A stretch of 64,000 bases of DNA from Myxococcales bacterium. GTDB lineage: Bacteria > Myxococcota > B64-G9. Made by a program: the position numbers and the translations under genes. Each line of letters opens with the position of its first letter. Within the stretch, counting starts at the first letter, position 1. Positions 3,406 through 10,098 of the stretch are shown here, piece after piece. A model generated the notes under the pieces. That model ran no database searches. It had not been told where the DNA came from and saw only the letters and a list, made by a program, of their open reading frames with translations. The stretch is from positions 1 through 64,000 of the forward strand of contig JAAZNF010000099.1 of assembly GCA_012798435.1 (NCBI GenBank), written 5' to 3'.

Positions 3406-3493
3406 GCGTATTCTCCCCATGGCACAGATATCAGAACGGGTGCCTCAATGCAACGGGTCCGGCAGAGACCTTCATCCCGGGATAACGCGAGCG

Positions 3494-3720
3494 GATGGCC
3501 GGAGGCGCGGCTGCTCATCGATGTCGCCGCCCTGATGATATCGTAGCGGCCGCGTAGCCGACCGGGGGCCCCCCGCCGCCGCGCAGGGTCCTCCCGAGCA
3601 GCGCCGGGGGTGGTCGGCGTTAAACAGGCCGCAGCGTGAACACTCGTTGCGGCGAAAATACCAACCTGGCGCGCCGCGAACAGATGGCCGGAGGCGCGGC
3701 TGCTCATCGATGTCGCCGCC
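3494..3720. repeat. Intergenic repeat cluster (units A1, B1, A2)
   Basis: A 38-bp sequence is present twice, identically, at 3494-3531 and 3683-3720. Between them a second unit (3615-3700) recurs almost identically at 5521-5605. Unit B runs directly into the second copy of unit A. Apparent proteins encoded here are the repeat read in frame rather than genes. The 329-bp gap 3406-3734 contains essentially this cluster. Confidence 0.8.
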
Positions 3721-3734
3721 TTGCGGACTTCGGG

Positions 3735-4508
3735 TCAGGCGGCGGGCTCGTCCTCGACTTGCTTGCCTGGCAGATCGAACGCCAGGATGGCGCGGGTGCC
3801 CCCGTCGGGGCGGGCCTCGATGGCGAGCCGGCCCCCGAGCAGGTTGGCGGCCTGGCGCGCCAGGGCGAGCCCCAGCCCGATGCCGTCCCAGCGCGCCTCC
3901 TCCGAGGCCGGGTCGGTCGCGAGCGTGCGCGTAAGGATGTCCAGGCGTTCGCTGGTCAGGCTGTTGCCGCTGTCCTCCACCGAGAGCGAGACTCGCCGCG
4001 TGTTGCCACCGCCGCGGTCCTGGCACGACAGCGTGGCGCGCACCACGCCGTCGCGGGTGGCCTGGGCGGCGTTGACGAGGAGCTCGCGCGCGACGCGCAG
4101 CATAAGGCGCGGCTCGCAAAACAGGCGCACGCGCGGCGCCTCCAGGAGGAGCTGGTTGCGGTTTCGCTCGAGCGCCTCCTGGGCCGCCTCGGCGGCCTGC
4201 GAAAGGATCTCGCCCGGGTTGAGCCACACCGGCTTGAGCGGGATCTTGCCGGCCTCGAGGCGGTAGAGCTCCAGAAGATCGTTGATGCGGGAGAGCAGCT
4301 GGCGCGCGCCGCGGTCGATCTGCCCCAGGTACTCCACCCACTCCGGGCGCATGAGGGGAGTGTCCTGCATCAATACGCTCAAGAACCCCACGATGGCGTT
4401 GAGCGGGGTCTTGAGATCGTGGCTCACCGTGGCCGCGAAGTCCGCCCGCCGCCGGTCCCGCTCCCGGGTCGGCGAGCGGCTCGCCGGCCGTTCCCCTTTC
4501 TTGCTCAT
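3735..4508 (-). CDS. Soluble sensor histidine kinase (no sensor domain)
   Basis: 257 residues made of a HisKA dimerisation/phosphoacceptor domain (SHDLKTPLNAIVGF, His30) and a HATPase_c domain. The ATPase has an N-box (ELLVNAAQATRDG), a G1-like VEDSGNS and a G2-like GIGLGLALARQ. There is no transmembrane segment and no PAS or HAMP domain; only about 25 charged residues precede the phosphoacceptor helix. The input must therefore come from a partner protein or through the basic N-terminus. Its ATG overlaps the stop of the DedA gene (ATGA, 4505-4508), so the two are probably translationally coupled. No response regulator is adjacent; the nearest receiver-domain gene is at 23748. Confidence 0.85.
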   Translation of the reverse strand: MSKKGERPASRSPTRERDRRRADFAATVSHDLKTPLNAIVGFLSVLMQDTPLMRPEWVEYLGQIDRGARQLLSRINDLLELYRLEAGKIPLKPVWLNPGEILSQAAEAAQEALERNRNQLLLEAPRVRLFCEPRLMLRVARELLVNAAQATRDGVVRATLSCQDRGGGNTRRVSLSVEDSGNSLTSERLDILTRTLATDPASEEARWDGIGLGLALARQAANLLGGRLAIEARPDGGTRAILAFDLPGKQVEDEPAA

Positions 4509-5152
4509 GAAATCACTCCGGTCCGGCGCGCGCGGCGGCGCCACCACCACACGGCGAGGAGCAAGAGGGCCGCAACCGGGATGGCGATCCACATGACCAG
4601 CGCGTAGGAGTGGAAGATCTCTTGTAGCCGGTCCCAGTTCTGGCCCACCGCATAGCCTGCCCCCAGGATCAGGAGGTTCCAGGCCACGGCCGACAGGGCG
4701 GCGAACAGCATCACACGCCCGAGGGGCATGCGCGCGGCGCCGGCGGCCACCAGGAAGAAGGCCCGCACCCCCGGTAAAAAGCGGTTGCCGGCGATGATCC
4801 AGGCACCGTAGCGGTTGAACTTCTGGGAGACGAGCTCGAACTTCTCCCGCGTGAGCGGCCGGAAGCCGCGCACGTCCTTCTCCGACGGCAGGCGGTCGAG
4901 ACGCCGGCCGATGAGCCGGCCGATGCCGTAGTCCAGGGCCGCGCCGGCGAGCGAGCCCGCCATGACCAGCCCGAGGCAGAAGGGGAAGCTCCACACGCCC
5001 TTCACCACCAGGAAGGTGGCGAACAGGGTGACGAGGTCGCCGGGGAACGGGGGAAAGACGTACTCGATCAGCGAAGAAGAGAAGACCGCTATTGCCCCCA
5101 AGCCGCCGTGCGACTCCACGGCCGAAAGCAGGTTTTGCAGCAGCTCTTCCAC
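4505..5152 (-). CDS. DedA/VTT-family membrane protein
   Basis: 215 residues with several transmembrane helices. It carries the DedA/SNARE-associated signatures: FPPFPGDLVTLFATF near residue 35, then GRLIGRR and FNRYGAWIIAGNRFLPGVRAFF around 120-140. That second stretch holds the conserved arginine and proline of the re-entrant loop. The C-terminal helix ends in an Arg-rich tail. The family flips or transports phospholipids and undecaprenyl phosphate and supports envelope homeostasis; which substrate applies here is unknown. The start is GTG (5152-5150). The gene lies 60 bp downstream of the histone gene and overlaps the kinase downstream by 4 bp, so the three look like one transcript. Confidence 0.88.
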   Translation of the reverse strand: MEELLQNLLSAVESHGGLGAIAVFSSSLIEYVFPPFPGDLVTLFATFLVVKGVWSFPFCLGLVMAGSLAGAALDYGIGRLIGRRLDRLPSEKDVRGFRPLTREKFELVSQKFNRYGAWIIAGNRFLPGVRAFFLVAAGAARMPLGRVMLFAALSAVAWNLLILGAGYAVGQNWDRLQEIFHSYALVMWIAIPVAALLLLAVWWWRRRARRTGVIS

Positions 5153-5212: not shown

Positions 5213-5398
5213 TCAGATGTCCTCGGGCCGGACGGTGGAGCGCTTGTTGGCCTTGGCGCGGGCGCAGGCCTTCTCCAGGATATCGTAGACGGCCTTGCTC
5301 AGCGCCTCGGGGAAGTCGCCGGCGGTCATGCACTCCTTGCTCTTGATGAAGTCTTTTACCTTGCTCACCACCACCACCATGTCGCGCTCTTCGGCCAT
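5213..5398 (-). CDS. Bacterial histone-fold protein (Bd0055-like, 61 aa)
   Basis: 61 residues, single domain: a short charged start (MAEERDMVVVVSKVKDF), a long central helix (FPEALSKAVYDILEKACARA) and a closing KANKRSTVRPEDI. The last part is the histone-fold ending, with the Arg-Thr and Asp-Ile pattern seen in archaeal histones (RKTIKAEDI). There is no room for extra helices or tails. Size and layout fit the short bacterial histones typified by Bdellovibrio Bd0055, which bind DNA as dimers; that parallel is from knowledge of the family. The start is supported by AAAGGGG 7 bases upstream. A longer in-frame reading upstream is only the repeat element. Followed by DedA and a histidine kinase. 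Confidence 0.85.
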   Translation of the reverse strand: MAEERDMVVVVSKVKDFIKSKECMTAGDFPEALSKAVYDILEKACARAKANKRSTVRPEDI

Positions 5399-5425
5399 GG
5401 GAAGCCCCTTTCGAAAGAGAGAGTG

Positions 5426-5458
5426 AAAAACCGCCCCGGGGACCATTCCCAGGGGCGG
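5426..5458 (-). terminator. Terminator-like hairpin just before the histone gene
   Basis: On the minus strand CCGCCCC pairs with GGGGCGG, with an inner GGGA/TCCC pair and a four-base loop, followed directly by TTTTT. It can end transcription of the TonB operon. Its 3' edge is only 27 bases before the histone ATG, which leaves little room for a separate promoter after it. If histone transcription starts upstream, the hairpin sits in the histone leader. Confidence 0.75.
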
Positions 5459-5502
5459 GGCCGATCGGTAGCACTTTGAGGCCGGTGATGCAAACAAAAA
5501 AC

Positions 5503-5605
5503 GCGCCGCGAGCGGGTGGCCGGCGTAAAACAGGCCGCAGCGTGAACACTCGTTGCGGCGCAATACCAACCTGGCGCGCCGCGAGCGGGTGGCCGGAGAC
5601 GCGGC
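5503..5605. repeat. Second copy of intergenic repeat unit B
   Basis: Positions 5521-5605 match 3615-3700 with only a few differences (one substitution and a short indel near the middle, then a few near the end). Here the unit is flanked by an exact 21-bp direct repeat at 5503-5523 and 5576-5596, a 73-bp period. The copy lies in the 220-bp gap between the TonB gene and the histone gene. Confidence 0.8.
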
Positions 5606-5618
5606 GGCTGGCGAGGGG

Positions 5619-7703: not shown

Positions 7704-8009
7704 TCAAGCGGGTTCGGATTGACCTCGGCACATTCTGTGTCTCGAATATCGAATTTGAACCACACCAAGGCCCAATAGCCCGAGCCACAGGCCTCTTTGG
7801 GCGCCCGCAACCATGTCGCATCCCCCGACGTCATCGCAATCAGACAGGATGTTTTGTATGCCTTTTTCTTCTAAAAACCCGAGGCAATCTGAACTCTCCA
7901 GCGCGGCAACCAGATCCGTCGGATGGATTCCCGCAAAGCCCTTGTTTTTCTCGCAGAGGATGAGACCTTCTTCTACCATCGCGTACGCAAGTAGCTCGTG
8001 CTTGTTCAC
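7704..8009 (-). CDS. Hypothetical protein, possibly a remnant
   Basis: An open frame of 101 residues with a GTG start at 8009. The first 60 residues look protein-like (balanced charge, HELLAYAMVEEGLILCEKNK, LVAALESSDCLGFLEEKG) and use codons more evenly than neighbouring high-GC genes. The last 40 are Gly/Arg-rich and unconvincing. There is no clear ribosome-binding site. It lies in the AT-richer island next to a broken gene, so it may be the end of a decayed gene. No family recognised. Confidence 0.3.
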   Translation of the reverse strand: MNKHELLAYAMVEEGLILCEKNKGFAGIHPTDLVAALESSDCLGFLEEKGIQNILSDCDDVGGCDMVAGAQRGLWLGLLGLGVVQIRYSRHRMCRGQSEPA

Positions 8010-8076
8010 GTCTGCAAGATGGGCGCTTCTCTATTGTCTGCATCCCCTGCTGTCGCAAATTTCATTTGGTCTACAA

Positions 8077-8367
8077 TCAGCATCCGTTGGCATCGCATGA
8101 GCCCGAATCAATCACCTCGCTCCCCCAAGAAGCCTTAATTGTTGGCTCGTAAACAAACCCAATAGTTTCTATCCTCACCCATCCAATCGCATCTGCTGCT
8201 CTTGCCCATGCACATACGTCACCGCCGTAATTTGTGTCGCACTCATATGTCGATGCAATAGCGGGTAACATATTGTGCGGTGCGCCATCAGTCTTGCTGC
8301 AGGAATAAATAGCCAGCGAGTGAGAGATAATAACCGCTATTATACAGCACTGAAAAGCATTGTTCAT
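8077..8367 (-). CDS. Small Cys-rich lipoprotein
   Basis: 96 residues with a lipoprotein signal peptide: MNNAFQCCIIAVIISHSLAI ending in the lipobox-like AIYSC (Cys23). The mature part of about 74 residues has four cysteines (ECDTN, DVCAW, GSCDANGC), which suggests disulfides. The start has a strong GGAGG site 7 bases upstream. The gene begins 15 bp after the stop of the broken secreted gene and was probably co-transcribed with it. Codon use is AT-rich compared with genes on either side, a sign of transfer. Function unknown. Confidence 0.65.
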   Translation of the reverse strand: MNNAFQCCIIAVIISHSLAIYSCSKTDGAPHNMLPAIASTYECDTNYGGDVCAWARAADAIGWVRIETIGFVYEPTIKASWGSEVIDSGSCDANGC

Positions 8368-8382
8368 GTTAATGCCTCCTTT

Positions 8383-9837
8383 TTACTTTTTCTTGGCATA
8401 TACAAGGTACTGATTGTATGCTTCGAGATAACTTATGACAGATGGAGCCACGTCGTTATACGGAAGGCAACAAGAGAAATTCCACGCTGTTCCATCAACT
8501 GAGCGATATACTTCCAAAGACTGGCCAGATCTCGCGGGCCTGATTGCTATATAAAAGAAACTAGATCTTCTATCATACCACAAGGCAATATCAGATGTCG
8601 TTCTTATATTGCTGCCTATTTGCCTATATCCGGGCTCAAAGACAACGCTATAGCTATTGCCTGACTTATATGCGTAGAAAAAACTTGTCCTTACCTCGTA
8701 TAGCTTATCGGAATGGTCAACATATGCTATAATGCAGTCATAGTAAGATCCGACACCATATGCCTTGCAAGCAACTCCCGGGCCAACAGAAGATTTGTAT
8801 CCTGTGTAAATAGGTGTTGGTATTCGATAATGATCTGAATATGTTTGCCCAACAACACCAATGGAAAGATACATATTCCTGTCAAGGTTGACGTTTCCTC
8901 GATCCATGTTGACCCATGCTATTGCAGTTGCGAGTGCCTGGCTCCAATCGTCCCATCCTATTGCTATCCTGTGCCCAGAGAACACCATTGAATCGTTTTG
9001 ACACTGGAGCCAAGAAGACATTTCATTGCACTTGTGAAGAAAAGGGAAACAAATATTGAGATGACAATCGCTCCCCGTTATAATATCTTGATTAAACAAG
9101 TATACTACGTGGTTTCCATCCCATGAATAATTGACTGGCATATCATGATGAGATGTGACAAAAATCTTTTCGAATTCAATATTGTCATCTCTAAATACTC
9201 CTGGAACGGGAGAGGTCCCAATATATCTACTGAATGAATGAACGATCTGGGCATTAGAGGTGCTCCAGCCAGGAGTCCAGACAATCTGAGGCTGGAAAAG
9301 GTCCCATCTCGTTACAACAGAACCTCTTCTCCAGGTTCCACTATCATACCACTCGAAAGGAGATGCTTTGGTTATATTCCAGTCTCCTGAATAGCAACTT
9401 TCGCTTCCAAAAGTGCCGTCATTATTCTACGGTATTGTGCTGTTATATGTTCTGATAACAATCACGGCATTTCTACAGGAGAATGAAAACAAATCGCAGC
9501 AGGCCGGATAAATCATCGCAGGGCTTTCAGATGAATCGTTTTTAAAGACCACAATAGAGTAGTCGATGCCCAAAACGTCGCACTCGATTTGTGAAAAAGG
9601 AAGATCAGTACGAGATGTTGATCCAAGATACCGAAAATATACAGAATTGGACTGCTCGTTCCAGACATCTGCTGCCAACAAAGTTGCATATGTGGCTTGA
9701 TTGCCATTTATTCCTCTGTAGGCCAGATTCTGTTCTGCGGAAAGACTGTTTATCCGATATTCGTTTCTGCTGTCTCTCCGAAAAAAAATAACTAAAAGGA
9801 CTTGTGAGCTCACTGCAGGATTCAACATGTTGTTCAA
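8383..9837 (-). pseudogene. Broken secreted protein gene (in-frame amber, probable frameshift)
   Basis: One reading frame runs from about 9837 to the stop at 8383 with a single interruption, TAG at 9429-9427. Protein-like sequence rich in Trp, Tyr and Gly continues on both sides (before: AVIVIRTYNSTIP; after: NNDGTFGSESCYSGDW). At the 5' end a lipoprotein-type signal (PSFFYCCTSS) lies in a different frame, and the two frames meet at an eight-A run (9781-9788), which points to a frameshift. The C-terminal 350 residues are beta-rich, with repeated Tyr/Trp-containing strands, and could be propeller-like. The N-terminal part faintly recalls the region before the catalytic domain in matrixin-like peptidases, but I see no HExxH. 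No function assigned; sequencing error is possible. Confidence 0.65.
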
Positions 9838-10098
9838 TTGTCGACAAAACGTGGTTGTCGGAACTTGTGCAGCAATAGAAAAAACTGGGAATGAATATCG
9901 TGGCAGCCAGAAAGACGTTGGTAAAAAAAGGAAATATTATGAATGCCGCGTTGCGGCCGACCCCCCCCCCACACACACCGCCCCTCTCTTTTAAATCCAT
10001 GTGCCCCAAGCCGAATGCCCGACAGATACGCATCATTTGGTCCCCCCGTGGGTTCTTCAACTGCTGGAGTGATGGTAGCGCGCAGAAAAAAGGGTGTC

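Follow-up and report, generated by a model that had tools for sequence, protein, structure and literature searches.

Described histones with a truncated third helix

The closest solved relative of the protein considered here is HLp from Leptospira perolatii (63 aa; PDB 9QT0-9QT2), a bacterial face-to-face (FtF) histone with a truncated alpha3 that forms a tetramer wrapping about 60 bp of DNA (PMC12701072). Leptospira has neither HU nor Dps, and the neighbours of its hlp gene are SMC, MAP and DUF350. HBb (Bd0055), from Bdellovibrio bacteriovorus (PDB 8CMP, 8FVX, 9EZZ), has the same alpha3-truncated fold, the RxTxxxxD motif and lysines in alpha1, but it is a dimer that bends DNA; bacterial dimer histones lack the first two FtF residues, R48 and N52 of the sequence logo (PMC11390915). 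The archaeal histone HTkC, from Thermococcus kodakarensis (PDB 9F2C), also belongs to the FtF torus-type tetramer class (PMC11390915). Histones of the alpha3 group have been described as single-gene units, whereas histones of another class are found in RdgC-histone operons, conserved multi-gene units that open with the histone gene and also contain a gene for a transmembrane protein (PMC11390915). FtF histones have previously been reported in Myxococcota (PMC11390915, PMC12701072); both the class and the phylum were thus already known, and the protein described below is a further member.

The histone gene and its relatives

The window, a stretch of 64,000 nucleotides from a Myxococcales bacterium (contig JAAZNF010000099.1, assembly GCA_012798435.1), carries a 61-codon histone gene at positions 5213–5398, the product of which (MAEERDMVVVVSKVKDFIKSKECMTAGDFPEALSKAVYDILEKACARAKANKRSTVRPEDI) begins MAEERDMVVVV and ends ANKRSTVRPEDI. 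The original prediction gave these coordinates correctly but left the strand unmentioned; it can now be fixed as the minus strand, with the ATG at 5398 and the reading frame running from 5398 to 5213, and the plus strand of this interval does not encode the histone. The clear ribosome-binding site that had been claimed is indeed strong: GAAAGGGG, at 5405–5412 on the minus strand, ends 6 nt upstream of the ATG and is invariant in five genomes of the family. The gene is no chance open reading frame: of 97 genomes (the window genome plus relatives from the phylum), 25, the window genome among them, encode a homologue of comparable length at E 0.01 or better, and such homologues also turned up at 26 loci in GTDB species genomes. 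The histone is the only one found in the window genome (5.05 Mb, 97% complete), which has five genes of the HU/IHF family; each member of the family has two or more such genes. Its placement in Myxococcota agrees with G071, a genome from this phylum, which encodes an encapsulin nearly identical to EncA of Myxococcus xanthus (4PT2).

The occurrence of the histone is patchy across both family and phylum. The FtF pair of arginine and asparagine is present at 22 of the 27 histone loci of the 97-genome sample and absent from the other five. Several of these loci have features of their own. Genome G096 carries two FtF-type histones (L012, L026), and G059, from Myxococcota, carries one FtF-type histone plus one dimer-like histone-fold match (L015, L027). 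Locus L018 (G034) encodes an FtF-type histone whose long N-terminal tail is rich in lysine and alanine and contains AAKKKAPAKKK repeats, and L025 (G028) has two tandem histone-fold units in a single open frame, with VLDRDFM followed by GEVLIVGSRLKNYIKAKSG and then VLDRDV. In the spirochaete-lineage loci L069 and L070, the histone is followed after 9–12 nt by a shared gene of 127–128 aa, which may represent another conserved neighbourhood of a histone.

Assignment to the FtF alpha3 class

General models score the protein weakly (DUF1931, 19.7 bits; Histone, 15.4; CBFD_NFYB_HMF, 15.1; NCBIfam archaeal histone, 17.9), and it falls below all curated Pfam and NCBIfam histone cut-offs, so that routine annotation would miss the gene. 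A DUF1931 pseudodimer, with two folds in a chain of about 140 aa, can be ruled out, because the product has 61 aa and one fold and its DUF1931 score lies under the cut-off of 21.8. Searches against solved structures were more informative: with phmmer, HLp (9qt0) was matched at 1e-12, HBb at 7e-5 and HTkC (9f2c) at 2e-4, and a profile of 24 relatives matched HLp at 7e-26 and HBb at 2e-10. HLp, about 46% identical to the window histone, is the top match in both sequence and fold.

The AlphaFold2 model (mean pLDDT 86.6) has alpha1 at residues 11–20, alpha2 at 29–50 and a three-residue C-terminal helical turn (alpha3) at 58–60. The long central helix of the original prediction thus corresponds to predicted helix 29–50, and the histone fold and its closing motif were also borne out, the predicted fold being histone-like and RxTxxxxD being present as R53, T55 and D60. 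Comparison with Bd0055, which had been proposed for a predicted homodimer and was made here with the single chain, likewise showed a histone-like fold but placed HLp (TM 0.89–0.92, rmsd 0.5–0.6) nearer than HBb (TM 0.81–0.86, rmsd mostly 1.1); the TM values for HTkC were 0.83–0.86.

The predicted fold has the truncated alpha3 (3–4 residues) and shortened alpha2 of FtF histones, and the R48 and N52 of the FtF logo are found here as R47 and N51, together with RxTxxxxD. R47, N51, R53 and K13 are invariant in an alignment of 20 relatives, and R47/N51/R53 match the tetramer residues R49/N53/R55 of HLp. Eight of the HLp DNA contacts listed in PMC12701072 (S14, K15, K17, K21, T27, G29, K54 and R59) have identical residues here (S12, K13, K15, K19, T25, G27, K52 and R57), and the remaining one, A13, is replaced by V11. 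At the interface, S52 and F63 of HLp correspond to A50 and I61. Judged from these residues, the sequence profile and the modelled fold, the gene encodes a genuine bacterial histone of the FtF alpha3 class, of the Leptospira type.

A conserved gene order in a lipid-gene cluster

The histone stop codon is followed, after 60 nt, by the GTG start of a gene for a DedA/VTT membrane protein of 215 aa (4505–5152, minus strand; PF09335, E 2e-15), for which the closest named families are UptA and DedA. An ATGA overlap then leads into a gene for a sensorless histidine kinase of 257 aa consisting of HisKA and HATPase_c only (3735–4508, minus strand). This overlap and histone-DedA gaps of about 45–60 nt are compatible with co-transcription.

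The family is represented by nine genomes, each from a separate genus, five with the histone and four without. The order histone-DedA-kinase is found in all five histone-bearing genomes (the window genome, G002, G003, G004 and G006), in which DedA and the kinase do, therefore, stay beside the histone, as the original prediction had asked of relatives. Its description of the histone as heading a DedA/kinase operon holds for these five, but only within the family, and the DedA-kinase pair, present in all nine genomes, stands without the histone in four of them. In G002, G003, G004 and G006, the DedA protein is 47–60% and the kinase 30–33% identical to the window proteins. The kinase diverges rapidly: the N-box asparagine has been lost in G002, and the G1 box is changed in G000 and G005. 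No DedA gene adjoined any histone at the outside-family loci checked, and nothing relevant on DedA with histones was found in the literature, judged from titles and abstracts.

In G002, G003, G004 and G006, the histone lies between DedA and a gene resembling glycerol-1-phosphate dehydrogenase (Fe-ADH_2), a substrate suggested by family resemblance. In G001, G005, G007 and G008, the dehydrogenase-like gene runs directly into DedA with no histone between them, and genome searches found no histone elsewhere in these four; a CDP-alcohol phosphatidyltransferase gene comes next in most of them. These dehydrogenase and phosphatidyltransferase neighbours place the DedA-kinase pair in a lipid-gene cluster, and the filled or empty position between dehydrogenase and DedA indicates that this older cluster contains a presence/absence slot for the histone. 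The arrangement departs from the description of alpha3 histones as single-gene units (PMC11390915). It resembles the RdgC-histone operons in having a histone first in a conserved unit with a membrane-protein gene, but the histone class and the partners are different, as are the neighbours of hlp in Leptospira.

The promoter-like element and the leader

A promoter-like element, TTGCAT-17 nt-TACCGA with TGn before the second hexamer, is located at 5465–5493 on the minus strand. Its core, TTGCA-N15-TGnTA, lies 98–110 nt upstream of the start codon of each of the five family histones, and the element and GAAAGGGG are common to the five in upstream DNA that is otherwise dissimilar. The pattern matches twice in the window, versus 0.03 matches expected, and five matches fall within 264 kb of the eight other family loci, both strands counted; four of the five should be the histone upstream sites. 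The second exact match in the window (3429–3453, minus strand) lies directly before the start, at 3420, of an O-antigen-ligase/TPR gene. None of the outside-family histones checked had the exact element upstream, and a strict sigma-70 consensus scan gave no match and did not list the element. Conservation nevertheless suggests that it is the histone's own promoter.

Between this element and the ribosome-binding site lies a terminator-like hairpin followed by T5 (5434–5454, minus strand), which did not appear in this form in the relatives; four terminator-like sites were found in the region versus 2.0 expected. The leaders of all five family histones were searched for conserved RNA structure, and their folds were no better than those of shuffled sequences.

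Rearrangement and repeats in the window genome

The older lipid-gene cluster has been broken up in the window genome, while the histone-DedA-kinase trio has remained intact: contig C44 carries the dehydrogenase together with the lipoprotein-like partner upstream of it, the phosphatidyltransferase is found near 35 kb in the window, and a TonB/ExbD/ExbB set precedes the trio. The promoter-like element remained with the histone after this rearrangement. TonB, ExbD and ExbB can be ruled out as members of the unit, as they do not adjoin the histone in relatives. At 7800–10000, an island of low G+C content (about 42–44%, versus about 68–70% around it) that looks foreign separates the ExbB gene from a malic-enzyme gene; the three open reading frames tested in it (8077–8367, 8383–9141 and 9427–9837) have no Pfam match.

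A dispersed intergenic repeat flanks the trio on both sides as direct copies, both on the plus strand and 91% identical; one is upstream of the histone (5514–5609) and the other beyond the kinase (3608–3704). The repeat is about 96 nt long and contains a shorter sub-unit, some 40 nt in length (query positions 71–110), and repeat regions extend over 3486–3732 and 5502–5609 in the window. It has 44 matching places genome-wide, mostly partial copies, and flanking of the trio is weak evidence for this reason; a mobile cassette between direct repeats is a correspondingly weak candidate. The repeat may have aided the rearrangement, or the copies flanking the trio may be incidental. Phylogenies built from DedA, from the dehydrogenase and from the two combined are weakly supported and do not separate gain of the histone from its loss within the family.

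Proposed mechanism and alternatives

We consider it likely that the protein acts as HLp does, as a tetramer wrapping about 60 bp and a nucleoid protein beside HU, and that DedA and the kinase are expressed from its promoter. Two chains would form a histone-fold dimer, and two dimers, joined via R47/N51/R53 and the C-terminal alpha3 turn, would form a ring-shaped tetramer. By analogy with HLp, the positive rim of this tetramer (S12, K13, K15, K19, T25, G27, K52 and R57) would wrap the DNA with no sequence preference, the histone working beside several HU/IHF proteins, and the genome may be packed partly by histone, as the original prediction inferred. A unit of promoter and histone may have been inserted at the dehydrogenase/DedA junction of the older membrane-lipid gene cluster or, alternatively, may have been lost from this junction in some lineages. 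The DedA-kinase pair probably now rides on the histone promoter; its dependence on this promoter is a guess. Such dependence would explain why the trio stays together. The A50 and I61 substitutions relative to HLp, and the terminator-like hairpin between the promoter-like element and the gene, weigh against this scheme.

The original prediction was of a Bdellovibrio-type histone acting as a dimer. HBb does have the same truncated fold, and its match is significant, but HLp scores far higher in every comparison, and HBb has S, D, G and M at positions R47, N51, K52 and R57. The protein clusters with HLp, and the residues separating FtF tetramers from bacterial dimers are present; residues, profile and fold thus reject the Bdellovibrio-type dimer, which we regard as highly improbable, and the closest solved relative points to a tetramer. 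A histone-fold protein with no part in genome packing, such as a low-abundance regulator of nearby genes, would fit with scores below every curated histone cut-off, with five HU/IHF genes already in the genome, and with a location in a gene cluster and patchy distribution in family and phylum. Nearly all the HLp DNA-contact residues are kept, however, the ribosome-binding site and promoter-like element are strong and conserved, and the low scores, common to the class of the proven FtF-type relatives, probably reflect the make-up of the models. This explanation is, therefore, very unlikely.

The linkage itself could be functional, with the kinase sensing the state of the envelope or lipid carrier through DedA and adjusting the amount of histone or its binding to DNA. 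The constancy of the order in the five histone-bearing genomes over large divergence, the survival of the trio in a rearrangement that scattered the older cluster and the proximity of Leptospira hlp to a membrane-protein gene (DUF350) and SMC (PMC12701072) all favour such a unit. Yet DedA and the kinase exist without the histone in four genera, the outside-family histone loci checked have no DedA nearby, the kinase diverges rapidly and in some members its ATP-site motifs are degenerate, and a single rearrangement is a single event. A shared promoter explains the linkage more simply, and coupling of this kind seems unlikely. It is distinctly doubtful that the histone, a DedA-type lipid-carrier flippase and the sensorless kinase form a regulatory unit tying chromatin to the envelope, with the kinase responding to DedA or lipid status and the slot between dehydrogenase and DedA marking lineages in which chromatin control was added to a lipid operon. 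Transcription of the pair from the histone promoter remains the preferred reading.

Significance

The gene adds a histone of the DNA-wrapping class in a Myxococcota lineage that has HU, whereas the FtF histones of Leptospira occur without it, making the division of labour between histone and HU open to comparison. The arrangement described here is an exception to the published rule of single-gene units for alpha3 histones. Within one family, five genera have a histone in the slot and four do not, a natural contrast from which the contribution of a bacterial histone to the cell could be read.
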